Shown piece after piece: positions 20,301 through 55,585 of a DNA stretch of 64,000 nt. Source of the stretch: Sipunculus nudus (lineage: Eukaryota; Annelida; Sipuncula; Golfingiida; Sipunculidae); the NCBI GenBank assembly GCA_026874595.1, contig CM049313.1, positions 47,192,159 through 47,256,158 of the forward strand. Direction: 5' to 3'. The notes under the pieces were generated by a model that saw only the letters and a list, made by a program, of their open reading frames with translations, ran no database searches and had not been told where the DNA came from. Position numbers and translations under genes: made by a program. Each line of letters starts with the position of its first letter. Within the stretch, counting starts at the first letter, position 1.

Positions 20301-23300
20301 AGTCCACATGCAACCCTGAGGGGCATGACACCCATGAGGTGATCACATGGTGGCCATGAGGTGTTCACATGTCACCCATGAGGTGATCACATGCCTTGTG
20401 CTTGGCTGCACTGACTGAACTCTTGACCTATATCTGGCTGCACTGAATGAACTCTTGATCTGTTGCCAAATCTGAAACATTTAGCAGTTTCTCAACCTAT
20501 TTAAAGATACAAACACAATCTTGGTCTGTTGGTCAATCTGTTAACACATACTGAAAGACTTTGGCTAAAATGCTATTTTTTCAAGCTGACATATTCATAA
20601 ACTTATTATCAAAATATCTAAATAACAAAAGATGCAGTTCTTTCATTGTTAAAGGTCCAATAATTCTGCCAAAAATCATTCAAGTAAACTTGAACAAAGG
20701 CCACCAAAGAATAATTTTTGTGAAATATTACAGAAGTTATAATTGAAACAATAATTTTGTAGAAGAACAGTTTTGCAGTCCTCAGTTTGAAACAGACATA
20801 ATAATGGCCATAAGACAAACTTAAGCTTTTCTGATATGATTGAAAGAACCATGTCCTAGGATAATTCTTTTGAAAAATTGAACGATTCAACTTGACAGCT
20901 TCATAATAAACAATTAAAGCTGAAAGAGGCTAAAATTACGAGGTTTTTGCTGATAAAAAACAGGTCAATGTAGATGGCACCACAAAATCTGCAACTTCAA
21001 ATATGAGTCATGTGACCAACATTTGCACAATACTTGGTAATGCTAGCTTCTGTCATTTCTGAGATTACTGTCAGTATGGTCAATTGGCCAAATGACTGTT
21101 CAAATTTGTGTAACACCACTTAAATTCATCAAATGCAAACCATTTGTACAAACTTGAAAGGGCTTGCCTCTGGGATCATTTTTGTAAAATATTGAACAAT
21201 TTGGCTGGACCGTTTACAAGAAGAAGACTTTTAAAGGTTTTTCAGCTTTTTCCCTATAAAATCTAAGTAAATGCAGATAGCAAAAAATTAACTGAATCCC
21301 ACAACATTTGATATGTGACAGATTATTGCATTAAATCTAGGGATGGTAGCTCCTGCTATTCCTGAGAAATTATGGGTTAATGTACAGAAGACCAATGACC
21401 CCCGTACAAAAAAAGGTCAATGCAGGTGGCACCACCAATACCTGAATTTCATATATGACTCATGTGACCAAAACTGGCATAAAATTTGGTGATGATAGTT
21501 CCAGCCTTTTCTGAGCAAAAAATTAACTGAATCCCACAACATTTGATATGTGACAGATTATTGCATTAAATCTAGGGATGGTAGCTCCTGCTATTCCTGA
21601 GAAATTATGGGTTAATGTACAGATGACCAATGACCCCCGTACAAAAAAAGATCAATGCAGGTGGCACCACCAATACCTGAATTTCATATATGACTCATGT
21701 GACCAACACTGGCATAAAATTTGGTGATGATAGCTCCAGCCTTTTCTGAGATTGCCATTTTAGTATGCTTTTTTGGACAGTTAGCTAAGTTTACTTCCTG
21801 TAACTCGGCCAAAATTCACCAAACTTGAACCATTCGAACAAACTTGGTAGATATGGTATAAAAGATTATTTCTCTGAAATATTGAACAATTTGGCTTGAC
21901 TGTTTCGGAAGAGAAGATTTTTAAAGGTTTTTTAGCTTTTTCTCTATAAAATCTAAGAAAATGCAGAGTTTTTCAGATTGCTAATTTTTTGCATTAAATT
22001 TCATGATACTAGCAATAGTTGTTTTCAAAATAGTATGGGTTAACGAAGACGAAAGACGATGCCAAACCATCACATTAGCTCACAGGTTCGCTAAAAATTA
22101 CTAAAGATGCATATTGAATGCAAAATTATAATACAGATACATCTCACTGATGGCAAAATCTTGAATAAAGTTGAGTATGGATACCAATTATTTATAATCC
22201 ATGTACAGCCATCTTTATTCACCCACAGAGAGCTGTATACCTGTGATTGTAAACACAGCATTTATTTAGCATAAATCTACATTTTTTAAAAGCTTTTAAA
22301 AAACATTCTTGTCAATATTAACCATAGATAACCTGATAACTAAATGTCTAGAGGCATTATGTAATGGATGCTGATAAACTGGTGCCAGGCCAGATGTATC
22401 TGCTTCACACAGCTAACATATATGGTAAAATGACTCAATTCAATCTTTATAATTCAGCCAAAATTCATTCTTTGGAACCATAAAATACAATTATTATAAG
22501 AATTATTCAGGGGATCATTCCTGTAAAATATTAAACAAATTGGCCTCAGTGTCGTCAGTCAAAAAAAGTTTTGCAGGTTTATAACTCATATGGGAAAATA
22601 CAGCAAAATGGCTAAGTTAAGCTTCCCATAACTCAGCCAAAATTTACTTAACCAAAACCATTTGAACAAACTTGAATTATCAACATCTAATGATAATTTA
22701 TGTGTGAGATTTAAGAATTTGGCCCAGTGGTTTTTGAGAAGAAGTTCTTTGTAGCCACTGAGCTAAAATGGGCTGTTATGGCATATGACTAAATTCAGCT
22801 TCCTATATCTCAGCCAAAAGTCACTGAACTGAGACCATTTGAACAAACTTCAGAAAGCACTACCCTAGGATCATTTCTGTGCCATATTAAACAATTTGGC
22901 CATATGGTTTCAGAGAAGAAGTTTTTTGTAGCAGTCAGTATGATACGGGCACTGATGACCCCCGTACAAAAAAGGCCGATGCAGGTGGCGCCACCAATAC
23001 CTCAATTTCAGATATGACTCATGTGACCAACATTGGCATAAAATCTGGTGATGATAGCTCCAGCCATTTCTGAGATTGTAATTTTAGTATGCTTTTTTGG
23101 ACAGATGACTAAGTTCAACTTCCTGTAACTTGGCCAAAAATCACCGAACTTAAACCATTCGAACAAACTTGAGAGAGATTGTTCCAGGAATCATTTCTGT
23201 GAAATATTGGACAATTTGGCTGAACATTTTAGGAGAAGAAGATTTTTAAAGCTTTTTTAGCTTTTTCCCCCAAAAAATCTAAGAAAATGCAATTAGCCAA

Positions 23301-26300
23301 AAAATAAGCAAAATCAGATAGAGTTTTTCGAAGACTAATTTTTTGCATAAAATTTCGTGATGCTCACTCTTGCCGTTTTCAAGATAGTATAGGTTAACGT
23401 ACAGACGACGGACGACGGACGCTGCCACACCATATCATAAGCTCACAGGTTCGCTAAAAATAGAGAAGCCTTTTTTGTGATTTTTAAAGTACAGGCCTCA
23501 GGTGGAAATACCTTTAGTATCAAACTTTTTAACTTATTTTTAGTATCAGCTTCTGTTGTCTTGAGTAAGAGCCAGGACACATCTCAAGGGGAGGGGGTTA
23601 AGATATTTCATGATCTTAACCAGCAGAGGCATACTGAAGACTAACTAGGAATTAACAGGCTCATGATCTATTGTATATGAAGTTATAATATCACAGGCAC
23701 TGTGAATCATCCATGTATCATAACAAACTGCTGGAGGTAAATTAGCAGATTAAAATTATGTTAATAAAAGCTGACAGGAAATCAATGACAAAGGTGAAGT
23801 AGATCATTATGCTGTCACTTAGTCTGTTACTGACTTGATTACAATGTCAAGCAGGCCTGCCAAAGGTAAATGACTGAAAAAAAGAGAAAATGGTCTGGTA
23901 AAAAGAGTAACATTCTTTTTAATAAAGAGTGGAAAAAAGTAAAATTAGCATCATTATCAGTATATCCTCAAAAAAAGAGTGACTCTTTTCAACTACTAGT
24001 GATTTGGCAGGCCCGGAGGGCAAGGTTCATGCACTTGTTTACTTGTTTAATGATCTGCACTCAGTCCCTTTGAATAAATGTAACATTTTAACTAGAATAC
24101 GGGTAGTCGACAAGCGACTACTTGTATCCGCCTAAATCAGAGTGGAACAGGTGAAGTGTTGCATATCAGCATGGATGTCTGCAGCCAAATTGTGTATGTA
24201 GGTTGCGCTACCTACCAAAAAATCCAAAAAGCCGTCCAAGTTGTATACATATGCAAAATTTAAGGCAGATAAGTCAAACCACTATATTGTATATGAGTGA
24301 TTTTTGCCCTTGGCAGACAAACAGATGGACGCTGTGCAAAAAAGGGTTGCAGGTGGCGCCACCAGTTTAGCGTATGATAAAGAGCTTTGTGAGAACTATA
24401 CACATGCAAAATTTTGGCCCAATCGGTCAAACGGTTCCCTAGATATGAGCTTGGATGTCTGCAGCGTAAACGTGAATGTAGGTGGCGCCACCTGTCATAA
24501 AATCAGAAAAGCTATCCAGGATGTATACGCATGCCAAATTTCAGGTGAATTAGTCAAGTCACTGCAGAGATATGAGTGATTTTAACCCAAGGCAGACAAA
24601 CAGATGGACACTGTGCAAACATGGTTGCAGGTAGCGGCACCATTTTTTGTGTATGTTATAAAGCTCTCCAAGGGCTACATTTGTGCAAAAGAATTTTCCT
24701 GATCGGTCAAACGGTTCCCGAGATATGAGCTTGGATGTCTGCAGCGTAAACGTGAATGTAGGTGGCGCCACCTGTCATAAAATCAGATAAGCTATCCAGG
24801 ATGTATACGCATGCCAAATTTCAGGTGAATTAGTCAAGTCACTGCAGAGATATGAGTGATTTTAACCCAAGGCAGACGAACAGATGGACACTGTGCAAAC
24901 ATGGTTGCAGGTGGCGCCACCATTTTTGGTGTATGTTATAAAGCTCTCCAAGGGCTACATTTGTGCAAAAGAATTTTCCTGATCGGTCAAACGGTTCCCG
25001 AGATATGAGCTTGGATGTCTGCAGCGTAAACGTGAATGTAGGTGGCGCCACCTGTCATAAAATCAGAAAAGCTATCCAGGATGTTTGCGCATGCCGAATT
25101 TCAGGTGAATTAGTCAAGTCACTGCAGAGATATGAGTGATTTTAACCCAAGGCAGACGAACAGATGGACACTGTGCAAACATGGTTGCAGGTGGCGCCAC
25201 CATTTTTTGTGTATGTTATACAGCTCTCCGAGGGCTACATTTGTGCAAAAAAATTTTCCTGATCGGTCAAACGGTTCCCAAGATATGTGGGTTTATGTGT
25301 GGAAACAGACGCACAAACGGACGCAGAGCGCAGAGGAAAGGTCAGAGGTCAAAACAAAATCGGGGCGCAGCAGTTCACATGTGACCCGAACATAATCCCG
25401 GGTTTCGGAAAATTCCGCCCAGCGGTTACGGAGGAGTTCTCCGGACACCTACGCGGCGGCGGCGGCGGCGTCCAGCTGAAAACATAGTATCCGCAAAACT
25501 CTGTTTTGGCGGATACAATTAGACATGAGAATTTAATGGCATGCCAGGTGCCAGGAGCCAGGTGTAATGGTGAAAATGGTTATCTCCTTCAGGCCTAAAT
25601 AACTCTTCTTTAAACAATCAACAAGTGCTTTTTAATTTTTTAGGATCTTGATAATGTCATTTCAAATTTAAAGCCGGCTATTCACCTGCCTTATCTGCAA
25701 AATTTAAGAGATTTCTGTGTTTAAATGGAGCCAATGACCTGTCTGATCATTATAAATTAAAGGTAATCCCTTGGAGCTTTTATCAAAAAGGCAGGAAAAT
25801 GTGGTTATCAAAACACACAGGCTGCTTGTTTTGTTTATATCAACATGTTTATAATATGTGGGGGCCAGTCAAAATAATAAAAACATCTGGCAGCAAATCA
25901 CATAAGCCAGAGCTTTGCATATGATGTTTGCAACAAGTGAAATTCCTACCTCAGCATATATGCAACCAACCATCTTTAGTTACATGTTTTCCTGTTTGTC
26001 AACATTAGTGTTTACAAACATGTTGTTGATAAACAAATCATATATCCTTCATAAAGGTCTTATAAGAACATTTCATAATCCTCAGATCATTGATATATAC
26101 ACAGAGGAAGCCAGAAATCACATAAATTCTTTTTTTTAAAAAGGTAGGTGAATGGGCAAATTTAAACATTAATGAACTACAGATAATTCCTGCTATGAAA
26201 GATTCTTTCGATGTAAAACTTATGTGACAGAGGTGTGACTTTGTTTATCTACAAGCTGTAAGTGAACATGGTACATGCAGCCTTGTTGACAAACAGAAAA

Positions 26301-29300
26301 ACCATGTCACTTAAAGGTGGTTGGTTGAATGTGTTAAAGTTAAAAGATCACTAGTTGCAAAATGCCAAACTCTGGTTTGTCTGATTTGCCACCAGATGTC
26401 CTTGCTAAATGTGTTTTTGGATAATTCGGCCCATGTACTATAAAATCTTCATTTTCTGACCCTTTAAAGATTAAAGGGATTATATCCAATTAGTAGACAG
26501 ATATCAGAATAGGCTTTAAACACAGTAAAGTGTGCAGGATGCCTGCTCAACCTGTAATGTTCTCACCTCTGAAAACTTCAACGTAATGAAGCATTGTGTA
26601 GTTATTATTTCTCCGGCCCCCACTAACGACGTCACGTATAGTGCGGACAATAAGCCTGGCATCATCTGTGACATCTCTCTTCTGAAATACATCCTGAAAT
26701 GAAAAAAACTTATATGCAAATTCCAGAAACCAGAATTCTATATACACTCTACTCACACAATTTCCCTTTGTACTTTTATATATATAAAATGTTCACAATT
26801 GTTTGTGAATCCATGTATGATGAGACCAGTAGAATCTATTCAGCAATACAAGTTAAAGCTAATATATACTGATTCAAATTTTCATGAATAGGGATTGTTC
26901 CTTTAAATTGGATGAGTATTTGAAATACAAATAATATTTGTCAAAGAACAGAGGTTATTTTTAACCTGTGAAGTACTGACTATAGTTGATGTTTCATATT
27001 AACTAAACCTGTGAATTGTTTACAGGTCTTTGACTTCATTAGAGTATCAACTATTGTTTGTCAATTCATTTTAGGATGCCTTTCCATGAGTGCGACACGT
27101 TTGCAGCACGACATACTGCATGACATGCCTCACGGGTAATGCCGCCGCCGCCAGAATGTTTCCATGAATGCGATTTTTCTGCGAAACAATGCACCAGAGC
27201 TCTGTTGCTGCATCCCATTTCCCTGCAAAAAAACACCTGATGAAGGGTTTGCCTAGCAGGGCGATAAACGTGTGTCGCAGGAATTGCTACATGTGTGATT
27301 TTCGCCGGAAGACATTTGTTGCACGGGATGTTGCTCTGGAACCCGCATTAATGGAAAGGCTACATGGTTAAAACATGAGAGCGATTCTGCCGCTGTCGCG
27401 ACGCCATGGCATCACAGAAAAATTGCGTATTTGGAAAGGCGGCCTTAGGATTCCATCAGTGCTGGGCTCCCACCAGGCTCCTGAAGAAATGTAGGAATTT
27501 TAAAGGAGGACTTCACACAAAAATTAAGAGTTTTCAGCCAAAACTATAGGGATACTAGAATGGCAGCCCTAAAAACAAATATGCCCCCCCCCCCAACAGG
27601 CCATCCCCAAGACATAAGGGGTAAATATATGCACTATCTCAAAACAATGATACTAAATTTCAGCAGATTGGACCTTGAATATCAAGGTCAAGGTCACCAG
27701 TTTTTGAACTCCAAAGATTTTGGCAGAAAACAATGGTGAAAAATGGTGTTTCAATTTTGAAAAAAAATTCTTCAGTACTTCTGAAGTTATGGGGGTCACA
27801 ATATACCTAGAATTGTGCAGACTTGACCTAAAAGGTCAAGGTCAAGATGAACACAACTCGGTGGAAATGAATTGTGTTACGAATTTGAAGGAAGAATACA
27901 CAATATTTCATAAGTTATTGTGTTCACAAGACAATAACAATAATTCTGCTTACTTGACTTTGAAGATTGTGGTCAAGGTCACCTGTTTTCTAACTTATCC
28001 ACAAACTTTGTTGAAACAAGTCATGTACCAAATTCGAGGACAAAATCCGAATTACTTAAAAAATTATATGGATGAAAATAATTTTTCATTTTGGCAGATA
28101 AGACCTTAAAAATGATGGTCAAGGTCATAGTTTTCAGAACTTGAACAAATATTTGGTAGAAACAATTGTGTTTTAAATTTCTGGAAGAAAAATATGCTGC
28201 CTTTCAAAAGTTACGGTGTTAACAAGATATCTGACATACAACAACAGATGATGGCACTGAAAACGTCTCCCCTGGATGGGGGGGGGGGGGGGGGGAGAGA
28301 CATAAAGATATAATAGTTTTCACTGTTTGTTTAGTGGTTTGCGTGGTAAACATACAGGGGTTTCTTATATAAAAGCAGCTTCTAATGGTCAGTTTCACTG
28401 GTTTAGATGGCTGCACTTGTATGACTGCACCAATTTCATTGACAGTTCCACAGAAGAGCTGCATGTTATCAATTATAATATGTTTATATAAAAATAATTA
28501 TCTAATGATGACAATTATGCTGATAAACAATTGGGCAGTGAAAAAAATTGGAAAAAAAGGGAGATTAGTCTAAATACTGGAAAATGTAGGAAATTATAGG
28601 AGACAATTTTTTCATGGAAAATTATAGAGTCAGCAGGAGGTCTGTTACTGTAAATGATCCAAATATTCTGCCATGGACAAGCATCTTCTAAAAGGCCAGA
28701 CGAGCTAAAATGACTGGCTTTGATTGAGTGCAGCAATTATTCAAAACATCATTACAGCTCTGTATTGATCTGAAATAAGTGATCACCTGTGCTACCTTTA
28801 ATTATATTCATTGGTTTTATATTTTACTGTATAAGTTTACTATAAAAAAATAATGATCATTGCCAGCTGGCTACAATAATAAATGTGGAAACTGGATATT
28901 TAAGAAAATTCTTGACAATACAATTTTCAATAAAACATTGACAAAAGGATTAACAAATGTACTGGTATAAGTGCAAACATGGCAGGTACAGCTTTAATGC
29001 AGTTACACTGAATGATATATATAAGAAGCTTATGGATTTATATAACTCGAGCAAAACTTAAGTCATGAAATAGCATAATTTGTAGGTTGGTTTATTTTAG
29101 TCTGGCAAGGCAGTAACTGATTAACGTTGCGTAAGTTTCCATACCAAAACTGCATAATACCACTATTACCCATACTTCATTTAACCATAGTGTACATCCA
29201 TATGCTAACGTGCAGCCCTTAACATTGCATTAAAATGAAGCTTACATTACAAATTTACATTAATTCTTGAGCACAAAGATGACTTTGTACCTTAAATTTA

Positions 29301-32300
29301 CTATGATAAAAAAAATTCCTGCATTTTCTGTTTCCTGTGCTAACACCTACATGTGCCATCAGTAATACTGACTTCAAAATAAAAGAAATTTCCCTAATAA
29401 TTATGTATCACAAATAGCCTTTTCATTTTCAGAATTTGTGAAATCATTACAGATACTGCATCAGCCTGCATATTTGTAGTAGTTTCATATTGCAAACTAG
29501 AGTTCTACATTCTATGGAATACCAGCCTCTAGCATATTGGAGGTGTATTATTCTGTCCATTCCCCCAGGTTCATTCATGTTTAGATGACTGTACCTTTAT
29601 GAATATTCTATGATAATGCTCCTGAATATGGATCATGTGATAGATCCAAACCAAATTCTGATCATTCATTGACCTTTTCTCAAAATGCCCTTCAAATTTC
29701 ATGAGATTCCATTCATGATGTGTGAGTTATGTCTTGAACAAACACAGACTCAAACGAGGATGAACGCATACCCTCCAGCTGAGTCAAATATCTGGTCCAC
29801 TGGTCAATGATGGATTAGGGACAAACACAAAATTAAAGACTTTCAAACAATGTGGAGTCATATTTTACATTCCCATGACATGGAGGGTTTTCCATGGCCT
29901 ACAGAATCTGTGCAAGCTTGTGCCATACATTCAATACTAAATGCTTTCTCCTGGAGTCACATACCTTACAGTTACAGATGTAAAGTACCTTTTAGTTATC
30001 ATGTCAATACAGATACAGATGTCAAGTACCTTAAAGTAACAAATGTCATGTACCTTATAGTTGAAGATGTCACTTTCCTTACAGTTACAGATGTCACGTA
30101 CCTTATAGTTACAGATGTCAGGTACCTTACAGTTACAGATGTCATGTACCTTATAGTTGAAGATGTCACTTTCTTTACAGTTACAGATGTCACATACCTT
30201 ATAGTTACAGATGTCATGAACCTTACAGTTACAGATGTCATGTACCTTACAGTCACGGATGTCATGTACCTTACATTTACAGATGTCACGTACCTCACAG
30301 TTACAGATGTCAGGTACCTTATAGTTACAGATGTCATTTACCTTATAGTTACAGATGTCATGTACCTTATAGTTACAGATGTCATGTACCTTACAGTTAC
30401 AGATGTCATGTACCTTACAGTTACAGATGTCAGGTACCTTACAGTTACACATGTCAGGTACCTTATAGTTACAGATGTCATGTACCTTATAGTTACAGAT
30501 GTCAGGTACCTAACAGTAACAGATGTCATGTACCTTACAGTCATGGATGTCATGTACCTTACATTTACAGATGTCACGTACCTCACAGTTACAGATGTCA
30601 GGTACCTTATAGTTACAGATGTCATGTACCTTATAGTTACAGATGTCATGTACCTTACAGTTACAGATGTCATGTACCTTACAGTCATGGATGTCAGGTA
30701 CCTTACAGTTACAGATGTCAGGTACCTTACAGTTACAGATGTCAGGTACCTTATAGTTACAGATGTCATGTACCTTATAGTTACAGATGTCAGGTACCTA
30801 ACAGTAACAGATGTCATGTATCTTACAGTTACGGATGTCATGTACCTTACATTTACAGATGTCAGGTACCTTATAGTTACAGATGTCATGTACCTTATAG
30901 TTAAAGATGTCACTTTCCTTACAATTACAGATGTCAGGTACCTTACAGTTACAGATGTCATGTACCTTATAGTTAAAATGATATGTACCTAACAGTTACA
31001 AGATGTCAAATACTTTACCATTACGGATGTCATGTACCTTACAGTTACAGATGTCATGTACCTTACAGATACAGATGTCAGGTACCTTACATTTACATAT
31101 GTCAGGTACAAAACAGTTACAGATGTCAGGTACAAAACAGTTACAGATGTCAGGTACATAACAGTTAAAATTGTAATGTACCTTACAGTTACAGATGACA
31201 GGTACCTTACAGTTACAGAAGATATTTACCATATTGTTACAGATGTCATTTTCCTTACAGCTACAGATGTGTGCCTTACCATTACAGATGTCATGCACCT
31301 GACAGTTACAGATGCCATGTGCCTTACCGTAAGAAATGTCATGTGCCTAACAGCTACTGATGTCATGTACCTTACAGTTACAGATGTCATGTACCTCATA
31401 GTTAAAGATGATATGGACTTTGCAGTTACAGATGCCATGTTTCTGACAGTTCAGATGTTACCTATCTTACAGTTACAAATGTCACAAACCTTACAGTAAC
31501 AAATGTCACATACCTTTCAGTTACAGATGTCACATATCTTACAGTTATAGATGTCACATACCTTACAGTTACAGATGTCACACACAGAATTAGACATCAT
31601 ACAGACGTCACATACCTTCCAGCTACAGATGTCACACACAGCATCAGGCATCATACAGATGTCACATACCATACAGTAACAGATGCCACACACAGCATCA
31701 GGTATCATACAGATGTCACATACCTTACAATAACAGATGTCACACAGCATTAGACATCATACAGATGTCACATACCATACAGTTACAGATGTCACACACA
31801 GCATCAGGCATCATACAGATGTCACATACCTTACAGTTACAGATGTCACACACAGCATCTGGTATCATACAGATGTCACATACCTTACAATAACAGATGT
31901 CACACACAGCATTAGACATCATACAGATGTCACATACCTTACAGTTACAGATGTCACACACAGCATTAGACATCATACATATGTCAGGTACAAAACAGAT
32001 ACAGATGTCATGTACCTTACATTTACAGATGTCAGGTACAAAACAGTTACAATTGTCACACACAGCATCAGGCATCATACAGATGTCACATACCTTACAG
32101 TTACAGATGTCACACACAGCATCAGGCATCATACAGATGTCACATACCTTACAGTTTCAGATGTCACACACAGCATCTGGTATCATACAGATGTCACATA
32201 CCTTACAATAACAGATGTCACACACAGCATTAGACATCATACAGATGTCACATACCTTACAGTTACAGATGTCACACACAGCATTAGACATCATACAGAT

Positions 32301-33169
32301 GTCACATACCTTACAGTTACAGATGTCACACACAGCATCAGGCATCATACATATGTCAGGTACAAAACAGATACAGATGTCATGTACCTTACATTTACAG
32401 ATGTCAGGTACAAAACAGTTACAATTGTCAGGTACAAAGCAGTTACAGATGTCAGGTACATAACAGTTAAAAATGTAATGTACCTTACAGTTACAGATGA
32501 CAGGTACCTTACAGTTACAGATTTAATTGTACCTTACAGTTACAGAAGATATTTACCATATTGTTACAGATGTCATTTTCCTTACAGCTACAGATGTGTG
32601 CCTTACCATTACAGATGTCATGCACCTGACAGTTAAAGATGCCATTGTGCCTTACCGTAAGAAATGTCATGTGCCTAACAGATACGGATGTCATGTACCT
32701 TACAGTTACAGATGTCATGTACCTTATAGTTAAAGATGATATGGACTTTGCAGTTACAGATGCCATGTTTCTGACAGTTCAGATGTCACCTATCTTACAG
32801 TTACAGATGTAAAGTACCTTTTATTTATCATGTCAATACAGATACAGATGTCAGGTACCTTACAGTAACAGATGTCACATACCTTTCAGTTACAGATGTC
32901 ACCTATCTTACAGTTATAGATGTCACATACCTTACAGTTACAGATGTCACACACAGCATCAGGCATCATACAAATGTCACATACCTTACAGTTACAGATG
33001 TCACAAACAGCATCAGGCATCATCCTACACTGGTCCCGCTGGAATCTTTCCCCGAAGTACTGCAGCTGCTGTGCCCGCCGGCAGTCTGTGCAGTTCTCAC
33101 AGTACTGTACCATACGATACAGGTTGTCAAGGTGTACCCTCTTAGCTTCATAGTCAGCATTAGCATCCA
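14187..33169 (-). CDS. BLM: RecQ helicase, Bloom syndrome protein type (C-terminal 8 exons)
   Basis: 3'-5' DNA helicase that, in other animals, dissolves double Holliday junctions with topoisomerase III-alpha and RMI proteins in the nucleus. Exons on the minus strand: 33169-32985, 26693-26567, 17805-17588, 16886-16754, 16126-15941, 15409-15303, 14968-14895, 14391-14187, all GT..AG with compatible phases; 1235 nt, 410 residues to TGA. Domains in order: RecQ zinc-binding (C-x..-C-x7-C-x2-C), winged helix (GKGASYSRTDTERLF), HRDC (DIQGVTEFKLERY), acidic linker, basic then RG-rich tail. The match to vertebrate BLM runs through all of these, which favours BLM over WRN or RECQL. The ATPase core must lie right of 33169 but was not found up to 64000. 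Confidence 0.93.
14895..14968 (-). CDS. BLM: BLM exon, basic nuclear-localisation-like segment
   Basis: Encodes GKKKFNRRRRGGSKKRGSSG then RGGT and two bases of Ser. The Lys/Arg clusters resemble the bipartite nuclear localisation signal in the tail of vertebrate BLM. Acceptor ctgtag precedes 14968; donor gtatgt starts at 14894, phase 2. Confidence 0.85.
15303..15409 (-). CDS. BLM: BLM exon, acidic linker after HRDC
   Basis: Encodes LDIDEGEEDFGAESESESHY then FNHEPSAGLNKSGFK. Acidic and Ser-rich; vertebrate BLM has a comparable ELDEEIPVSSHYF segment at this place, so SESHYF is a good anchor. Acceptor tttag precedes 15409; donor gtaagg starts at 15302. Confidence 0.88.
15941..16126 (-). CDS. 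BLM: BLM exon, second half of HRDC domain
   Basis: Encodes ARNYGFKSYTAVFNNETLKE to KLERYINKFLEVTCNYATIL. The segment REEMIDIQGVTEFKLERY matches the LLQIDGVTEDKLEKY helices of the vertebrate BLM HRDC domain, used in Holliday junction processing. Donor gtgagt starts at 15940, phase 1. Confidence 0.93.
16754..16886 (-). CDS. BLM: BLM exon, winged helix to HRDC junction
   Basis: Encodes VELQVRSSGRGAAAVEKIGR, a Gln-rich stretch, then VYDQCYDELITTAKDVG, the first HRDC helix (vertebrate counterpart MVKKCLGELTEVCKSLG). Acceptor ctgcag precedes 16886; donor gtaagt starts at 16753, phase 1. Confidence 0.88.
17588..17805 (-). CDS. BLM: BLM exon, RQC winged helix
   Basis: 72 codons beginning SQNAKVSQAGHDRLPLHGKG, then ASYSRTDTERLFRQLVTSGI and ending QLLNGDLK. 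This is the DNA-binding winged helix of the RecQ C-terminal region; GKGASYSR..TERLF and the LLNGDLK end are close to vertebrate BLM. Acceptor tctcag precedes 17805; donor gtgaga starts at 17587. Confidence 0.95.
18830..19560. repeat. Non-autonomous repeat, two internal copies, GACAGACGGACAG tail
   Basis: A paragraph of about 300 bp occurs twice: GTGCAGCAGGT..AGACCATCAGT and CAATGATCATAGTAAGTTTT near 18925 and again near 19227. It ends with a GACTGACAGACCTACAGATG / GACAGACGGACAG tail and GAGGGCTAAAAAT at 19556. Similar tails end the blocks at 23.4 and 41.7 kb, so these belong to related or convergently organised families. No coding capacity. Confidence 0.6.
19690..23467. repeat. Composite non-autonomous repeat with GCGAACCTGTG ends
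   Basis: Left end has GTGCGAACCTGTGCA (19716 region); the inverted word CTCACAGGTTCGCTAAAAAT occurs at about 22079 and 23443, suggesting element ends and a tandem or nested second copy (about 1.37 kb). Inside, a paragraph of 230-330 bp repeats (CAGCCAAAATTCACCAAACT, AATATTGAACAATTTGG, AGAAGAAG) and GCAGGTGGCACCACC / GCAGGTGGCGCCACC boxes near 21426, 21658 and 22982. The right end carries ACGACGGACGACGGACG. No protein is encoded. Confidence 0.6.
20200..20470. repeat. Short minisatellite, CTGCACTGAGTGAACTCTTG
   Basis: The phrase GGCTGCACTGAGTGAACTCTT followed by GACCTGT recurs four to five times with drift, together with three GAGGTGATCACATG-type words near 20335-20395. It lies inside the larger repeat block. 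Confidence 0.65.
24119..25523. mobile_element. Non-autonomous element with inverted ends and 280-bp tandem core
   Basis: Ends: TTGTATCCGCCTAAATCAGA at 24122 onward and its near-inverse (ACTCTGTTTTGGCGGATACA) at 25498-25517. The core repeats every 280 bp (for example 24481, 24761, 25041). Each 280-bp unit has two halves, each carrying the perfect palindrome GGTGGCGCCACC, at 24352, 24481, (24630 mutated), 24761, 24910, 25041, 25190: alternating 131 and 149 bp. Hairpins flank both ends (GTAGTCG..CGACTAC just outside the left end). No transposase seen. Class not determined. Confidence 0.65.
26567..26693 (-). CDS. BLM: BLM exon, start of winged helix
   Basis: Encodes DVFQKRDVTDDARLIVRTIR then DVVSGGRRNNNYTMLHYVEV and FRG. 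RDVTDDARLIVR aligns with RDVTDDVKSIVR of vertebrate BLM just after the zinc site. Acceptor tttcag precedes 26693; a second in-frame cag 12 bases on could be used instead. Donor gtgaga starts at 26566, phase 1. Confidence 0.92.
27074..27444. mobile_element. Harbinger-like MITE with TTA target duplication
   Basis: A 371-bp GC-rich island bounded by TTA on both sides (27071-27073, 27445-27447). Ends are inverted: GGATGCCTTTCCATGAGTGC on the left and the inverse of GGCCGCCTTTCCA on the right. A second, inner pair of the same motif is present (near 27158-27177 and 27340-27365), so the ends are nested. A 3-bp TWA duplication is typical of PIF/Harbinger. No coding capacity. Confidence 0.55.
27480..28270. 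repeat. Repeat with TCAAGGTCA hairpin boxes every 138-151 bp
   Basis: Four units each contain a GACCTT-type word followed within about 10-20 bp by TCAAGGTCA or GGTCAAGGTCA (cores near 27683, 27834, 27972, 28118). The first is the near-palindrome GACCTTGAATATCAAGGTC. TCAAGGTCA is the extended half-site bound by ERR/SF-1-type nuclear receptors in other animals; function here is not shown. Likely a dispersed non-autonomous repeat. Confidence 0.55.
28278..28295 (+). repeat. Homopolymer run of 18 G
   Basis: Uninterrupted G tract at the right edge of the preceding repeat, in the BLM intron. It is prone to length error in sequencing. Confidence 0.95.
28296..29950. other. BLM intron stretch without recognised feature
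   Basis: AT-rich single-copy-looking DNA between the TCAAGGTCA repeat and the minisatellite. No exon or RNA gene is seen. Confidence 0.55.
29956..32984. repeat. Exon-derived minisatellite (24-bp and 54-bp units) in BLM intron
   Basis: Left two thirds: about 60 units of 24 bp (plus strand ACAGTTACAGATGTCAGGTA then CCTT). Right part: about 15 units of 54 bp in which the 24-bp motif is joined to CACACACAGCATCAGGCATC and ATACAGATGTCACAT. On the minus strand the 54-bp unit reads MMPDAVCDICNCKVCDIC, that is, the last 13 codons of the BLM exon 33169-32985 plus its donor GTATGTGACATCTGT. Larger blocks are duplicated within it: 31100-31460 recurs at 32420-32790, and 29957-30020 recurs near 32790-32850. 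It directly abuts the exon. Units are multiples of three, so frames stay open on both strands. Confidence 0.93.
32985..33169 (-). CDS. BLM: BLM exon, RecQ zinc-binding module
   Basis: Two bases complete a codon, then 61 codons: DANADYEAKRVHLDNLYRMV, QYCENCTDCRRAQQLQYFGE, RFQRDQCRMMPDAVCDICNC, K. The four zinc ligands of RecQ proteins are present (Cys of DCRR, Cys of DQC, and the CDIC pair). Acceptor ttttag precedes 33169. The donor (AAG then GTATGT, gt at 32984-32983) is the first of a long series of copies in the intron. Joining to 26693 gives CDICNCK-DVFQKRDVTDD, which aligns with vertebrate CDNCCKTKDYKTRDVTDD. Confidence 0.94.
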
Positions 33170-34724: not shown

Positions 34725-35185
34725 TAACAGCTGCATTTAGAAATAATGTAACAATGTGAATAACAGAAACATACGCATCTGATGTTGCTTGATGTGTTAA
34801 GGAACTTTAATATTCTTTCCTCAGTATAACTAATTGTAACTGAAATTATCAAGAGCATTTAGAAGTAACAGAACTTTATGAATGACAATCATATATTCAA
34901 GGGATGTTGTTTGATGTTTTTTATATTGTTCAATCCCATCTCCAGTATTACTGATTGCAATTAAAATAACAGCATGATTATAATTGTAACTGAAATTTTG
35001 AAAAGTATTTAGAAGTAACAGAACTTTGTGAATGATAGTTATATTCAATTGATGTTGTTTGATGTGTTTTAGATCTTTCAATCCCATCTTCAGTATTACT
35101 GATTGCAATTAAAAAAATCAGCAGGATTGAGAAGTAACAGAACTTTGTGAATTACAGTCATAGTCAATGGATGTTGGTTGATGTG
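34725..35185. repeat. Tandem repeat, 3-4 diverged units of about 120-150 bp
   Basis: The phrase TTTAGAAGTAACAGAACTTT followed by GTGAATGA occurs near 34855, 35006 and 35124 (and diverged near 34735), with ATTGATGTTGTTTGATGTGT and TTCAATCCCATCTTCAGTAT also repeated. Confidence 0.8.
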
Positions 35186-44900: not shown

Positions 44901-46070
44901 ACCATCCTAATTATGATAGTGTACAACACTACAACAAACTTGAAGACAAGAAACTGAGAGGTTATTTTGCCTGGTACGTGTGTGTGCTAATGGATTTACA
45001 TAAGCACCACAAGGTACTGGACAAAATGCAGCTCCAAAACAACACTTGTCCATAAAGCAGTCCTAACTCAGTATTGTAAAAACCTATAGTTTACTTGAAA
45101 GTACTCTGGGGGGCTTGTGGTAAAAAACACAACTAGCACCTTAGGGTACTCTCAGGGAGGCTTGGATTTCAACAGTGAAAAATAATTCAAATCAGGATAT
45201 ATAACCATGTGAACATTTTGGCACTTGTGAATAAAAATAAGCTGTTACCTGGACCTGTCCCTGTGTGTGTTTCTGTGCAATTAACATAAGCACCATGAGG
45301 TACTGGGCCAGGTGTGGTTCAAAACATCAGAACCTCACTAAGAGATTGTAACTGAAAATATACATATTATCCATATTTTATACAAAAATATGTACATCAA
45401 CTATTAATGGAACATTATGGGGCTGGTACACTTAGGGTACTCTCAGGGAAACTTGTGCTGTATCAGATTTCAAATTGTACAGAAAGTACTAGAAAACAAA
45501 TATGCATCCAACATATCACCTGTTTACAAATATTAGGCCATCACTAGGACTGGTTCCTGTGTGTGTTTCTGTCTAATTAACATAAGCACCACAAGGTACT
45601 GGACCAGGTGTGGTTCAAAAACATCATATCCTGATTAAGTGAATGAAACAAAAAAAAAAAACAAAGAGCACATTTTATTGCAGAATGCAGATATAAAATC
45701 AGGTTTATTTGATGGTTCACTATGGGGCTTTTAATAAAAATAAGCATCTTAGGGTACTCTCAGGGATGCTTGAGCATCATCAGATTTAGTCTTACAGAAT
45801 ATACTAGAAGAAAGATATGTATCAAGACATATCACCTATAGAGAAATATTCAGCCATCACTTGGACTGGATCCTGTGTGTGTTTCTGACAAATCAACATA
45901 AGCACCACATGGTACTGGGCCAGGTGTGGTGTAAAACACGTGTTTTTGATTTGCATCTCATCAAAATTAAGATTAATCTTATAGCCAAAATACTGATGGA
46001 AATCAGCATATCTAGAAACAAAGAAAACAGAGCTGTCACTTGTACTGGTTCCTGTGTGTGTTTCTGTCTA
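41930..46070. repeat. Decayed left fringe of the satellite, conserved short boxes
   Basis: Most of this DNA does not align to the satellite core, but short boxes do. X-type: ATAAGCACCACAAGGTACTG at about 41950, 43338, 43514, 43719, 44704, 45001, 45288, 45581, 45897. Y-type: CTAGCACCTTAGGGTACT at about 42389, 42696, 42836, 44867, 45134. Z-type: GGTACTTTGTGGGACTGGTG at about 42350, 42806, 44833. Box-to-box spacing becomes regular (about 130-180 bp) from 44700 rightwards. Confidence 0.8.
44270..44450 (+). promoter_or_regulatory. CCAAT/TATA promoter-like module with splice donor
   Basis: GTCCAATGAG (CCAAT at 44270-44274), TATATAAA at 44343-44350, and a strong donor (ACTTAG then GTATGTAAG, gt at 44446) 96 bp later, with no such arrangement in the satellite units around it. 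It would start a plus-strand transcript running into the satellite. Could be chance in AT-rich DNA. Confidence 0.3.
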
Positions 46071-49000
46071 ATTAACATAAGCACCACGAGGTACTGGACC
46101 AGGTGTGGTTCAAGACATCAGAACTTCACTAAGTGAATGAAACAGAAAATGTACATATTCTGCACATTTTTTGCAAAAAATATGTACATTAAATAAAGTT
46201 TATTTGATGGTACACTATGGGGCTGGTGTGTAAAACCAATTAGCACCTTAGGGTACTCACAGGGAAGCTTGTGCTGCATCAGATATTCAAACTGCTCAGA
46301 ATATATTAGACGACTAATACATATCACATATTTATCTCTTGTTCACAAATATTCAGCCATCACTTGGACTGGTTCCTGTGTGTGTTTCTGTCTAATTACC
46401 ATAAGCACCACGAGGTACTGGACCAGGTGTGGTTCAAATCATCAGAACCTCACTAAGTGAATGAAACAGAAATCATACTGTTCTGCACATTTTATGTGAA
46501 ATATGTATATTAAATCAAGTTTATTTGATGGTACACTATGGGGCTGGTGCATAAAACCAATTAGCACCTTAGGGTACTCTCAGGGAAGCTTGTGCTGCAT
46601 CAAATCTTTAAACTGTACAGAATATACTAAAGGAAAGACAAGCATCCTGATGATCCTATACATATCACCAATACAGAAATATTCAGCCATCACTTGGACT
46701 GGTTCCTGTGTGTGTTTCTGAAAAATCAACATAAGCACCACAAGGTACTGGGCCAGGTGTGGTTCAAAACACGTTTTTTAGAGTTGTAAGATAGAATTCT
46801 CTTAAAAAATAAATATATTAAATCAAGTTTATTTGATGGTAAACTATGGGGCTGGTGTCTAAAACAAATTAGCCCCTTAGGGTACTCTCAGGGAAGCTTG
46901 TGCTGCATCAGATATTCACACTGTGCAGAATATATAAGAAGACAGATACACATCGCATAAAAATCTCTTGTTCACAAATATTCAGCCATCACTTGGACTG
47001 GTTCCTGTGTGTGTTTCTGTCTAATTAACATAAGCACCACGAGGTACTGGGCCAGGTGTGGTTCAAAACATCAGAACCTCACCATGAGAATGAAACAGAA
47101 AATGTACATATTCTGCACATTTTATGCAAAAAATATGTACATTAAATAAAGTTTATTTGATGGTACACTATGGGGCTGGTGTGTAAAACCAATTAGCACC
47201 TTAGGGTACTCTCAGGGAAGCTTGTGCTGCATCAGATATTCAAACTGCTCAGAATATATTAGACGACTAATACATATCACATATTTATCTCTTGTTCACA
47301 AATATTCAGCCATCACTTGGACTGGTTCCTGCGTGTGTTTCTGTCTAATTACCATAAGCACCATGAGGTACTGGACCAGGTGTGGTTCAAATTATCAGAA
47401 CCTCACTAAGTGAATGAAACAGAAATCATACTGTTCTGCACATTTTATGTGAAATATGTATATTAAATCAAGTTTATTTGATGGTACACTATGGGGCTGG
47501 TGCATAAAACCAATTAGCACCTTAGGGTACTCTCAGGGAAGCTTGTGCTGCATCAAATCTTTAAACTGTACAGAATATACTAAAGGAAAGACAAGCATCC
47601 TGATGATCCTATACATATCACCAATACAGAAATATTCAGCCATCACTTGGACTGGTTCCTGTGTGTGTTTCTGACAAATCAACATAAGCACCACAAGGTA
47701 CTGGGCCAGGTGTGGTTCAATACATGTTTTTAGAGTTGTAAGATAGAATTCTCTTAAAAAATAAATATATTAAATCAAGTTTATTTGATGGTACACTATG
47801 GGGCTGGTGTGTAAAACCAATTAGCACCTCAGGGTACTCTCAGGGAAGCTTGTGCTGCATCATATATACACACTGTGCAGAATATATTAGAAGACAGATA
47901 CACATCGTATAAATATCTCTTGTTCACAAATATTCAGCCATCACTTGGACTGGTTCCTGTGTGTGTTTCTGTCTAATTAACATAAGCACCACGAGGTACT
48001 GGGCCAGGTGTGGTTCAAAACATCAGAACCTCACCATGAGAATGAAACAGAAAATGTACATATTCTGCACATTTTTTGCAAAAAATATGTACATTAAATA
48101 AAGTTTATTTGATGGTACACTATGGGGCTGGTGTGTAAAACCAATTTGCACCTTAGGGTACTCTCAGGGGAGCTTGTGCTGCATCAGATATTCAAACTGC
48201 TCAGAATATATTAGACGACTAATACATATCACATATTTATCTCTTGTTCACAAATATTCAGCCATCACTTGGACTGGTTCCTGTGTGTGTTTCTGTCTAA
48301 TTACCATAAGCACCACGAGGTACTGGACCAGGTGTGGTTCAAAACATCAGAACCTCACTAAGTGAATGAAACAGAAATCATACATATTCTGCACATTTTA
48401 TGTGAAATATGAATATTAAATCAAGTTTATTTGATGGTACACTATGGGGCTGGTGCATAAAACCAATTAGCACCTTAGGGTACTCTCAGGGAAGCTTGTG
48501 CTGCATCAAATCTTTAAACTGTACAGAATATACTAAAGGAAAGACAAGCATCCTGATGACCCTATACATATCACAATTCAGAAATATTCAGCCATCACTT
48601 GGACAGGTTCCTGTGTGTGTTTCTGACAAATCAACATAAGCACCACAAGGTACTGGGCCAGGTGTGGTTCAAAACACGTTTTTTAGAGTTGTAAGATAGA
48701 ATTCTCATAAAAAATAAATAAATTAAATCAAGTTTATTTGATGTTAAACTATGGGGCTGGTGTCTAAAACCAATTAGCACCTTAGGGTACTCTCAGGGAA
48801 GCTTGTGCTGCATCATGTATTCACACTGTGCAGAATATATTAGAAGACAGATACACATCACATAAATATCTCTTGTTCACAAATATTCAGCCATCATTTG
48901 GACTGGTTCCTGTGTGTGTTTCTGTCTTATTAACATAAGCACCATGATATACTGGGCCAGGTGTGGTTCAAACATCAGAACCTCACCATGAGAATGAAAC

Positions 49001-52000
49001 AGAAAATGTACATATTCTGCACATTTTTTGCAAAAAATATGTACATTAAATAAAGTTTATTTGATGTTAAACTATGGGGCTGGTGTCTAAAACCAATTAG
49101 CACCTTAGGGTACTCTCAGGGGAGCTTGTGCTGCATTAGATATTCAAACTGCTCAGAATATATTAGACGACTAATACATATCACATATTTATCTCTTGTT
49201 CACAAATATTCAGCCATCACTTGTTCTGGTTCCTGTGTGTGTTTCTGTCTAATTAACATAAGCACCACGAGGTACTGGACCAGGTGTGGTTCAAATCATC
49301 AGAACCTCACTAAGTGAATGAAACAGAAATCATACTGTTCTGCACATTTTATGTGAAATATGTATATTAAATCAAGTTTATTTAATGGTACACTATGGGG
49401 CTGGTGCATAAACCAATTAGCACCTTAGGGTACTCTCAGGGAAGCTTGTGCTGCATCAAATCTTTAAACTGTACAGAATATACTAAAGGAAAGACAAGCA
49501 TCCTGATGATCCTATACATATCACCAATACAGAAATATTCAGCCATCACTTGGACTGGTTCCTGTGTGTGTTTCTGACAAATCAACATAAGCACCACAAG
49601 GTACTGGGCCAGGTGTGGTTCAAAACACGTTTTTTAGAGTTGTAAGATAGAATTCTCTTAAAAAATAAATATATTAAATCAAGTTTATTTGATGGTAAAC
49701 TATGGGGCTGGAGTCTAAAACAAATTAGCCCCTTAGAGTACTCTCAGGGAAGCTTGTGCTGCATCAGATATTCAAACTGCTCAGAATATATTAGACGACT
49801 AATACATATCACATATTTATCTCTTGTTCACAAATATTCAGCCATCACTTGTTCTGGTTCCTGTGTGTGTTTCTGTCTAATTACCATAAGCACCATGAGG
49901 TACTGGACCAGGTGTGGTTCAAATCATCAGAACCTCACTAAGTGAATGAAACAGAAATCATACTGTTCTGCACATTTTATGTGAAATATGTATATTAAAT
50001 CAAGTTTATTTGATGGTACACTATGGGGCTGGTGCATAAAACCAATTAGCACCTTAGGGTACTCTCAGGGAAGCTTGTGCTGCATCAAATCTTTAAACTG
50101 TACAGAATATACTAAAGGAAAGACAAGCATCCTGATGATCCTATACATATCACCAATACAGAAATATTCAGCCATCACTTGGACTGGTTCCTGTGTGTGT
50201 TTCTGAAAAATCAACATAAGCACCACAAGGTACTGGGCCAGGTGTGGTTCAAAACACGTTTTTTAGAGTTGTAAGATAGAATTCTCTTAAAAAATAAATA
50301 TATTAAATCAAGTTTATTTGATGGTAAACTATGGGGCTGGTGTCTAAAACAAATTAGCCCCTTAGGGTACTCTCAGGGAAGCTTGTGCTGCATCAGATAT
50401 TCACACTGTGCAGAATATATAAGAAGACAGATACACATCGCATAAAAATCTCTAGTTCACAAATATTCAGCCATCACTTGGACTGGTTCCTGTGTGTGTT
50501 TCTGTCTAATTAACATAAGCACCACGAGGTACTGGGCCAGGTGTGGTTCAAAACATCAGAACCTCACCATGAGAATGAAACAGAAAATGTACATATTCTG
50601 CACATTTTATGCAAAAAATATGTACATTAAATAAAGTTTATTTGATGGTACACTATGGGGCTGGTGTGTAAAACCAATTAGCACCTCAGGGTACTCTCAG
50701 GGAAGCTTGTGCTGCATCATATATACACACTGTGCAGAATATTTTAGAAGACAGATACACATCGTATAAATATCTCTTGTTCAAAAATATTCAGCCATCA
50801 CTTGGACTGGTTCCTGTGTGTGTTTCTGTCTAATTAACATAAGCACCACGAGGTACTGGACCAGGTGTGGTTCAAAACATCAGAACCTCACTAAGTGAAT
50901 GAAACAGAAATCATACATATTCTGCACATTTTATGTGAAATATGTATATTAAATCAAGTTTATTTGATGGTACACTATGGGGCTGGTGCATAAAACAAAT
51001 TAGCACCTTAGGGTACTCTCAGGGAAGCTTGTGCTGCATCAAATCTTTAAACTGTACAGAATATACTAAAGGAAAGACAAGCATCCTGATGACCCTATAC
51101 ATATCACCAATACAGAAATATTCAGCCATCACTTGGACTGGTTCCTGTGTGTTTCTGACAAATCAACATAAGCACCACAAGGTACTGGGCCAGGTGTGGT
51201 TCAAAACACGTTTTTTAGAGTTGTAAGATAGAATTCTCATAAAAAATAAATATATTAAATCAAGTTTATTTGATGTTAAACTATGGGGCTGGTGTGTAAA
51301 ACCAATTAGCACCTTAGGGTACTCTCAGGGAAGCTTGTGCTGCATCATATATACACACTGTGCAGAATACATTAGAAGACAGATACACATCGTATAAATA
51401 TCTCTTGTTCACAAATATTCAGCCATCACTTGGACTGGTTCCTGTGTGTGTTTCTGTCTAATTACCATAAGCACCACGAGGTACTGGACCAGGTGTGGTT
51501 CAAATCATCAGAACCTCACTAAGTGAATGAAACAGAAATCATACTGTTCTGCACATTTTATGTGAAATATGTATATTAAATCAAGTTTATTTGATGGTAC
51601 ACTATGGGGCTGGTGCATAAAACCAATTAGCACCTTAGGGTACTCTCAGGGAAGCTTGTGCTGCATCAAATCTTTAAACTGTACAGAATATACTAAAGGA
51701 AAGACAAGCATCCTGATGATCCTATACATATCACCAATACAGAAATATTCCGCCACCACTTGGACTGGTTCCTGTGTGTGTTTCTGACAAATCAAACATA
51801 AGCACCACAAGGTACTGGGCCAGGTGTGGTTCAAAACACGTTTTTTAGAGTTGTAAGATAGAATTCTCTTAAAAAATAAATATATTAAATCAAGTTTATT
51901 TGATGGTAAACTATGGGGCTGGTGTCTAAAACAAATTAGCCCCTTAGGGTACTCTCAGGGAAGCTTGTGCTGCATCATATATTCACACTGTGCAGAATAT

Positions 52001-55000
52001 ATAAGAAGACAGATACACATCGCATAAATATCTCTTGTTCACAAATATTCAGCCATCACTTGGACTGGTTCCTGTGTGTGTTTCTGTCTAATTAACATAA
52101 GCACCACGAGGTACTGGGCCAGGTGTGGTTCAAAACATCAGAACCTCACCATGAGAATGAAACAGAAAATGTACATATTCTGCACATTTTATGCAAAAAA
52201 TATGTACATTAAATAAAGTTTATTTGATGGTACACTATGGGGCTGGTGTGTAAAACCAATTAGCACCTCAGGGTACTCTCAGGGAAGCTTGTGCTGCATC
52301 ATATATACACACTGTGCAGAATATTTTAGAAAACAGATACACATCGTATAAATATCTCTTGTTCAAAAATATTCAGCCATCACTTGGACTGGTTCCTGTG
52401 TGTGTTTCTGTCTAATTAACATAAGCACCACGAGGTACTGGACCAGGTGTGGTTCAAAACATCAGAACCTCACTAAGTGAATGAAACAGAAATCATACAT
52501 ATTCTGCACATTTTATGTGAAATATGTATATTAAATCAAGTTTATTTGATGGTACACTATGGGGCTGGTGCATAAAACCAATTAGCACCATAGGGTACTC
52601 TCAGGGAAGCTTGTGCTGCATCAAATCTTTAAACTGTACAATATATACTAAAGGAAAGACAAGCATCCTGATGACCCTAAACATATCACAATTCAGAAAT
52701 ATTCAGCCATCACTTGGACTGGTTCCTGTGTGTGTTTCTGACAAATCAACATAAGCACCACAAGGTACTGGGCCAGGTGTGGTTCAAAACACATTTTTTA
52801 AAGTTGTAAGATAGAATTCTCATAAAAAATAAATATATTAAATCAAGTTTATTTGATGTTAAACTATGGGGCTGGTGTCTAAAACCAATTAGCACCTTAG
52901 GGTACTCTCAGGGAAGCTTGTGCTGCATCATGTATTCACACTGTGCAGAATATATTAGAAGACAGATACACATCACATAAATATCTCTTGTTCACAAATA
53001 TTCAGCCATCATTTGGACTGGTTCCTGTGTGTGTTTCTGTCTAATTAACATAAGCACCATGATATACTGGGCCAGGTGTGGTTCAAAACATCAGAACCTC
53101 ACCATGAGAATGAAACAGAAAATGTACATATTCTGCACATTTTTTGCAAAAAATATGTACATTAAATAAAGTTTATTTGATGGTACACTATGGGGCTGGT
53201 GTGTAAAACCAATTTGCACCTTAGGGTACTCTCAGGGGAGCTTGTGCTGCATCAGATATTCAAACTGCTCAGAATATATTAGATGACTAATACATATCAC
53301 ATATTTATCTCTTGTTCACAAATATTCAGCCATCACTTGGACTGGTTCCTGTGTGTGCTTCTGTCTAATTACCATAAGCACCACGAGGTACTGGACCAGG
53401 TGTGGTTCAAATCATCAGAACCTCACTAAGTGAATGAAACAGAAATCATACTGTTCTGCACATTTTATGTGAAATATGTATATTAAATCAAGTTTATTTG
53501 ATGGTACACTATGGGGCTGGTGCATAAAACCAATTAGCACCTTAGGGTACTCTCAGGGAATCTTGTGCTGCATCAAATCTTTAAACTGTACAGAATATAC
53601 TAAAGGAAAGACAAGCATCCTGATGATCCTATACATATCACCAATACAGAAATATTCAGCCATCACTTGGACTGGTTCCTGTGTGTGTTTCTGACAAATC
53701 AACATAAGCACCACAAGGTACTGGGCCAGGTGTGGTTCAAAACATGCTTTTAGAGTTGTAAGATAGAATTCTCTTAAAAAATAAATATATTTAATCAAGT
53801 TTATTTGATGGTAAACTATGGGGCTGGTGTCTAAAACAAATTAGCAGATACACATCGCATAAATATCTCTTGTTCACAAATATTCAGCCATCATTTGGAC
53901 TGGTTCCTGTGTGTGTTTCTGTCTAATTAACATAAGCACCATGATATACTGGGCCAGGTGTGGTTCAAAACATCAGAACCTCACCATGAGAATGAAACAG
54001 AAAATGTACATATTCTGCACATTTTTTGCAAAAAATATGTACATTAAATAAAGTTTATTTGATGGTACACTATGGGGCTGGTGTGTAAAACCAATTAGCA
54101 CCTCAGGGTACTCTCAGGGGAGCTTGTGCTGCATCAGATATTCAAACTGCTCAGAATATATTAGACGACTAATACATATCACATATTTATCTCTTGTTCA
54201 CAAATATTCAGCCATCACTTGGACTGGTTCCTGTGTGTGCTTCTGTCTAATTACCATAAGCACCACGAGGTACTGGACCAGGTGTGGTTCAAAACATCAG
54301 AACCTCACTAAGTGAATGAAACAGAAATCATACATATTCTGCACATTTTATGTGAAATATGTATATTAAATCAAGTTTATTTGATGATACACTATGGGGC
54401 TGGTGAATAAAACAAATTAGCACCTTAGGGTACTCTCAGGGAAGCTTGTGCTGCATCAAATCTTTAAACTGTACAGAATATACTAAAGGAAAGACAAGCA
54501 TCCTGATGACCCTATACATATCACCAATACAGAAATATTCAGCCATCACTTGGACTGATCCCTGTGTGTTTCTGACAAATCAACATAAGCACCACAAGGT
54601 ACTGGGCCAGGTGTGGTTCAAAACACGTTTTTTAGAGTTGTTAGATAGAATTCTCATAAAAAATAAATATATTAAATCAAGTTTATTTGATGTTAAACTA
54701 TGGGGCTGGTGTGTAAAATCAATTAGCACCATAGGGTACTCTCAGGGAAGCTTGTGCTGCATCATATATTCACACTGTGCAGAATATATTAGAAGACAGA
54801 TACACATCACATAAATATCTCTTGTTCACAAATATTCAGCCATCATTTGGACTGGTTCCTGTGTGTGTTTCTGTCTAATTAACATAAGCACCACGAGGTA
54901 CTGGGCCAGGTGTGGTTCAAAACATCAGAACCTCACCATGAAAATGAAACATAAAATGTATATATTCTGCACATTTTATGCAAAAAATATGTACATTAAA

Positions 55001-55576: not shown

Positions 55577-55585
55577 ACGTTTTTT

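Follow-up and report, generated by a model that had tools for sequence, protein, structure and literature searches.

An unbroken tandem array of 3.03 kb was found on the minus strand from position 32984, the first base of an intron, to position 29956 (positions refer to the window, i.e. the whole 64,000-nucleotide stretch of Sipunculus nudus DNA that was analysed). We consider this array to be a minisatellite that was seeded by the end of the adjoining BLM exon through a 24-bp duplication, extended later through a 54-bp duplication and carried as a neutral passenger, and we assign this reading a probability of roughly 85%. The units lie within the range of about 10-100 bp, are arranged head to tail and extend to the kilobase scale, and the array thus qualifies as a minisatellite. 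The initial annotation had described the intron as opening with copies of its own splice site; this description holds, and the first unit directly abuts the donor.

The exon beside the array (32985-33169, minus strand) encodes the zinc-binding domain RecQ_Zn_bind (Pfam PF16124, E 3.5e-15, 56.9 bits, with the match reaching residue 59 of 61), and its 5' limit was placed at the AG at 33171-33170, as the sequence suggests. A search of solved structures with this exon returned Bloom syndrome protein chains as the top five matches (best E 4.3e-14), and a protein search of the assembly with the same exon returned the exon itself as the sole match. The exon tail reads ...MMPDAVCDICNCK; its final AAG ends at 32985 and the intron begins with GTATGT at 32984, giving the donor AAG/GTATGT. 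Matches to RQC (PF09382, E 6.5e-15) and HRDC (PF00570, E 3.1e-10) were detected in downstream segments on the same strand, and RecQ-family matches were detected upstream on C8, the contig that contains the window, also on this strand, beyond the window edge. The RecQ zinc-binding, RQC and HRDC domains are thereby found in BLM order on one strand. Judged from these domain matches, the gene is very probably BLM, and the three domains together with the upstream RecQ segments would belong to a single transcript.

The next exon (26567-26693, minus strand; DVFQKRDVTDDARLIVRTIRD...) is read as part of BLM; it follows the acceptor TTTCAG/ and ends an intron of 6.3 kb. Its match to the Pfam RQC profile is under the cut-off (E 0.018) and covers profile positions 3-35, in register with positions 41-106 of the downstream exon. 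Structure matches of this exon are weak, with Bloom syndrome protein (E 0.29) placed behind a designed repeat protein (0.00021). The exon junction maps between positions 434 and 439 of the Bloom syndrome chain 4cgz_A, with the second of the two matches being weak (E 0.31). Human BLM presumably has an intron close to the junction position (c.3210+2); no paper with the c.3210+2 BLM variant was found among those listed in the literature search. The GC content of the window is 35.3%. At the other end of the window, an open frame at 9402-9665 (plus strand) matches class II tRNA synthetases (D, K and N; PF00152, E 4.7e-10), and other open frames in the first 10 kb resemble the same gene by eye; this plus-strand gene, which we take to be of the asparaginyl type, converges with BLM.

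The array was parsed with two unit types from 32984 to 29965, yielding 93 units of 24 bp and 15 full units of 54 bp, in agreement with the "some 15" longer and "tens" of shorter copies counted in the initial annotation. Exact lengths of 24 nt and 54 nt were found in 81 and 14 of these 108 units, respectively; the other 13 deviate. Tandem Repeats Finder, proposed earlier as a check, reported both periods: period 24 at 29962-32949 (121.9 copies), period 54 at 31499-32382 (16.6 copies) and, at 32920-33023, the pair formed by the exon and the first copy (period 54, 98% matches). Mean pairwise identity was 0.78 for the 24-bp units and 0.90 for the 54-bp units.

From the exon outward, the array opens with one 54-bp unit (32931-32984), which starts at the first intron base and continues the exon's reading frame, followed by a block of degenerate 24-bp units (32364-32930). 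A cluster of fourteen 54-bp units then occupies 31562-32363, where a 318-bp higher-order repeat is present and two 24-bp units (32039-31992) break the series. Eleven 24-bp units at 31206-31465 are a copy of 32793-32533 (identity 255/260, distance 1328 bp) and constitute a segmental duplication within the array. The stretch at 29965-30965 is made up of 24-bp units organised into higher-order repeats of 144 and 288 bp and is richest in exact GTACMTGACATCTGTAACTRTAAG units. The terminal remnant GTATGTGAC (29956-29964), followed by TCCAGGAGAAAGC and unrelated intron without further units, probably represents the original intron start. An odd three-unit block containing TATTGACATGATAA was observed at both 32858-32794 and 30029-29965 (minus strand), i.e. 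near the exon and at the far array end; a single unit (31489), rather than the three-unit block, stands in the equivalent spot ahead of the copied block 31465-31206.

The initial annotation had derived the 54-bp unit from the last 13 exon codons plus 15 intron bases, and the comparison bears this out. The unit combines the exon's final 39 nt with the intron bases GTATGTGACATCTGT; this exon stretch matches 38/39 in three of the 15 units and 32-37 positions in the others. The maximum in 200 mononucleotide shuffles of the array, in which dinucleotides were not preserved, was 25/39, and the two flanks reached 21/39. In all 15 units, GTG stands in place of the exon's GTT (14 clearly, one spanning a 2-base deletion), which is most simply explained by one founding copy. 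The seed of the 24-bp unit is the last eight exon codons, GTTTGTGACATCTGTAACTGTAAG (VCDICNCK; 32985-33008, minus strand), and the best 24-bp unit, at 31489, matches it at 23 of 24 positions.

No age gradient with distance from the exon was seen among the 24-bp units, whose mean match to the exon was 18.2/24 in the proximal part and 19.8/24 in the distal part; the block duplications (the 255/260 copy and the 318-bp and 144/288-bp repeats) can explain a scrambled gradient. A tree of units rooted with the exon had been suggested as a further check. In FastTree trees, which cover 24-54 sites, carry no support values and are descriptive only, the unit nearest to the exon is the 24-bp unit 31489, and the 54-bp tails and a few 24-bp units of the GTATGT and GTACGT types come next. 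The 15 54-bp tails lay at a mean distance of 0.141 from the exon, compared with 0.23-0.34 in groups of 24-bp units. Only two of the 93 24-bp units (31489 and 30221) share the T that the exon has at position 3. The unit at 31489-31466 (minus strand) could be either the oldest copy that survives or the result of a later conversion; its nearness to the exon, together with the T-bearing units, would also be compatible with a second seeding or a conversion event.

The 24-bp unit had initially been regarded as a shorter derivative of the 54-bp unit, and this order should be reversed. The exon's last 24 nt, which start with GT, finish with AAG and recur in the intron, are themselves the 24-bp unit. 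In addition, the consensus of the 15 intronic bases in the 54-bp unit matches exon positions -24 to -10 at 14 of 15 positions, and this exact consensus form occurs in 11 of the 15 units; the actual first 15 intron bases match the same exon segment at 13/15. The 54-bp unit already contains a partial intronic copy of the 24-bp unit, so the 24-bp duplication is deduced, from unit composition, to be the older one. If the 54-bp duplication came second, as a later round of copying, the 54-bp tails should lie closer to the exon on average, as they do.

The array ends suggest how the process may have begun. The array both opens and closes with GTATGTGAC, which matches at 8/9 the exon's GTTTGTGAC, located 24 bases upstream of the donor. 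We propose that the last eight exon codons were tandemly duplicated (24 bp) by slippage or unequal exchange, and slippage would probably have occurred between these near-identical 9-mers (exon -24 to -16 and intron +1 to +9). Owing to the GT start and the AAG end of the duplicated segment, AAG/GT would be regenerated at the same exon edge and the copies would become intronic. Given that the exon end is kept and all added copies are intronic, array growth would cost the protein nothing. Later, a 54-bp segment (39 nt of exon end plus 15 nt of repeat-bearing intron) would have been duplicated and expanded to 15 copies, and block duplications (318 bp, about 1.33 kb and 144/288 bp) would have produced the 3-kb array, which would be removed by splicing from the first donor, 32984.

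The main alternative is that the array works, i.e. that its donors compete and that the choice among them tunes the BLM level, with donor 2 adding 18 residues and the donors from 32882 onward leading to decay. Exact AAGGTATGT copies count in favour of this view: 17 were counted in 33100-29920 including the real donor, 18 on the window's minus strand and none on its plus strand, so that 16 further copies lie in the array beyond the real donor. GTATGT also starts 13 of the 15 54-bp units. With an assumed U1 tail sequence, 20 of 354 GT sites in the array reached at least the U1 duplex energy of the real donor, vs 2/181 and 1/169 in the flanks. The +5 G of the donor, however, is present in only 16 of the 93 24-bp units (75 have another letter and 2 a gap), and most of them would accordingly be weaker donors than the original. 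Moreover, proximal donors are usually favoured among donors of equal strength.

The reading frame limits what such donors could do. The putative donor 2 (32930) is in frame and would add VCDICMMPDAVCDICNCK, 18 aa, and the zinc-binding match persists with this extension at 47 bits vs 56.9 without it. The first in-frame stop past the exon, a TGA at 32888-32886 within the degenerate block, precedes the third exact donor copy (32882) and all later ones; among the exact copies, only the second thus leaves the frame open. As for other GT sites before the TGA, only the weak-looking GCT/GTGTGT at 32954 is in frame, and TAG/GTGACA at 32902 shifts the frame. A coding array was considered and rejected: as the unit lengths are multiples of 3, long stretches stay open in the exon frame, yet 42 in-frame stops occur in 32888-29956. 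Substitutions by codon position numbered 87/124/49 in the 24-bp units and 21/8/15 in the 54-bp units; neither type has a third-position excess, which indicates no coding constraint on the array and speaks against a working array as well.

RNA structure that hides or presents donors was also rejected, as neither of the two pieces folded was more stable than its shuffles. The 162 nt around the real donor were no more stable than shuffled sequences (z -0.25; 70 of the 200 shuffles were equally or more stable), and one 300-nt piece of the 24-bp array folded less than all 200 shuffles (z +3.26), which would leave donor sites in that stretch accessible, as a working array would need. Recursive splice sites of the AG/GT type were not favoured: the 17 bases upstream of the 76 AGGT sites in 33100-29920 are on average 55% pyrimidine (maximum 65%), compared with 71% at the next exon's acceptor. 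On balance, a regulatory role of the competing donors appears unlikely. Most likely, the array is carried as a neutral passenger and spliced out from the first donor; it probably has no function.

A further possibility, which we hold to be similarly doubtful, is that the donor is self-renewing: by virtue of the GT start and the AAG end of the unit, the exon end would be copied into the intron without limit and the exon would stay intact, the intron would lengthen in ratchet fashion from its donor side, and spare donors would accumulate as a polymorphic bank. If this were true, BLM would sometimes gain an 18-residue cysteine-rich module or its transcript would be subject to decay, and the device would sit in the very helicase that acts in recombination.

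The claim that the exon is the seed depends in part on the absence of an earlier source, and an array of the unit elsewhere in the genome that predates this one had been named as one observation that would contradict it. Such an array was looked for in the 1.43-Gb assembly and none was found; off the locus, only four scattered matches with 2-3 mismatches were present. A 381-base query of 54-bp units returned 13 matching pieces, all at the BLM locus. The 24-bp pattern (at most 2 mismatches) had 56 genome-wide matches, namely, 53 in the array, 1 in the exon and 2 on C13, and the reversed control had 1. The 29-bp exon-tail pattern (at most 3 mismatches) had 15 matches (14 in the array, 1 in the exon; control 0). 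The donor-spanning pattern (at most 3 mismatches) also had 15, of which 13 were at the locus, one of them over the real donor, and 2 elsewhere, on C3 and C12 with 3 mismatches each (control 0). All these match counts may be lower bounds, with masked stretches being invisible to the search. A dispersed source on C13 was rejected: its two 2-mismatch matches lie about 183 kb apart, one of them is a single unit without an array in the 221 nt read, and the 621-nt pieces around both have an ungapped identity of 0.68.

These results bear on the converse order, in which the intron first held a 24-bp satellite and the exon's last codons were then rewritten by gene conversion or by sliding of the donor, so that the exon end would be partly a product of the array. 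The last three codons (NCK) stand at or past the end of the conserved Pfam match, where Bloom syndrome protein is one residue shorter, and this off-by-one at the exon end would fit such rewriting; the array could thus have changed the final 9 nt of the exon. On the other hand, TGTGACATCTGT (CDIC), which makes up half of the 24-bp unit, encodes the conserved zinc-binding motif; this motif occupies its normal position in the protein, within the PF16124 match, and is ancestral protein sequence. No second array was found, as described above, and the exon retains GTT where the array usually has GTA or GTG, indicating that conversion by the array was not effective there. An array-first origin is hence improbable, and the exon, as the initial annotation had held, is most likely the seed, a conclusion that rests on protein conservation in the coding RecQ_Zn_bind segment of BLM and on the lack of another array. 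An assembly or collapse artefact is very improbable, since the structured differences between units (identity 0.78/0.90) and the clear higher-order blocks are unexpected from assembly error, although the locus was seen in a single assembled copy and the number of array units may be off.

Other repeats occur nearby. A second large tandem array, with a unit of about 324 bp in six blocks, occupies 46036-64000 in what looks like the preceding intron of BLM; going upstream, the first RecQ-family match is located at C8:47258829 (about 66671 in window coordinates, outside the window), and this intron would thus be about 33 kb long. An open frame of 216 aa (55940-56587, minus strand) between the blocks of the 324-bp array has a weak match, below the cut-off, to zf-RVT (E 0.0075), the zinc-binding part of reverse transcriptases, and is possibly a LINE remnant. 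Tandem repeats were also observed at 24163-25287 (280 bp x 4), 21279-21750 (235 bp x 2) and 34831-35128 (148 bp x 2), in apparent BLM introns on both sides.

The minisatellite of IFI6 abuts its exon and has a 12-bp unit resembling the bare donor consensus. The BLM array shares the traits of this type, in that its units carry 5' splice-site sequence and it abuts an exon. Unlike that of IFI6, the BLM unit is a 24- or 54-bp piece of conserved coding exon plus donor, and the array reaches 3 kb. According to PMC4526556, the human IFI6 minisatellite supplies several splice donors, and two downstream repeat units are used as such; this multiple-donor minisatellite of IFI6 (6-16, G1P3) goes back to Turri, Cuin and Porter 1995, as cited in PMC4526556, PMC2572611 and PMC2915984.

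Another set of precedents concerns intron gain. In PMC3629103, 24-nt tandem repeats are described around gained introns of the Schizosaccharomyces genes SPOG_01682 and SOCG_00815; the proto-splice site is given there as AGGC and, as retold in PMC4974935, as AGGT, and one EST contradicts the annotated intron. The Rogers model and the ATP2A1 case, as outlined in PMC4974935, involve a coding segment with splice-site letters that is tandemly duplicated, with the copies turned into intron. The BLM array resembles these accounts in the duplication of a coding segment whose copies became intron, and the unit is 24 nt in fission yeast as well. In those cases the new introns arise within coding sequence, whereas in BLM an existing intron grew longer at its donor side and the exon boundary was kept. 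The BLM array is similar to ordinary intronic minisatellites and VNTRs in unit length, slippage-like block structure and higher-order repeats, but differs in having an identifiable source, the adjoining exon, and in starting exactly at intron base 1.

The initial statement that no described case resembles this one was therefore too strong, with IFI6 and the two Schizosaccharomyces genes being close precedents. No description of an exon-seeded donor array in BLM was found in the open-licence literature searched (titles and abstract starts). The BLM case differs from these precedents in the donor-side lengthening of an intron, the size and the exonic seed that can still be read. Satellites often have no visible origin. 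The BLM locus shows the seed, a probable priming direct repeat, the order of events and the reason why the growth was tolerated, and the array, although probably harmless, illustrates cleanly how arrays of this kind can arise.
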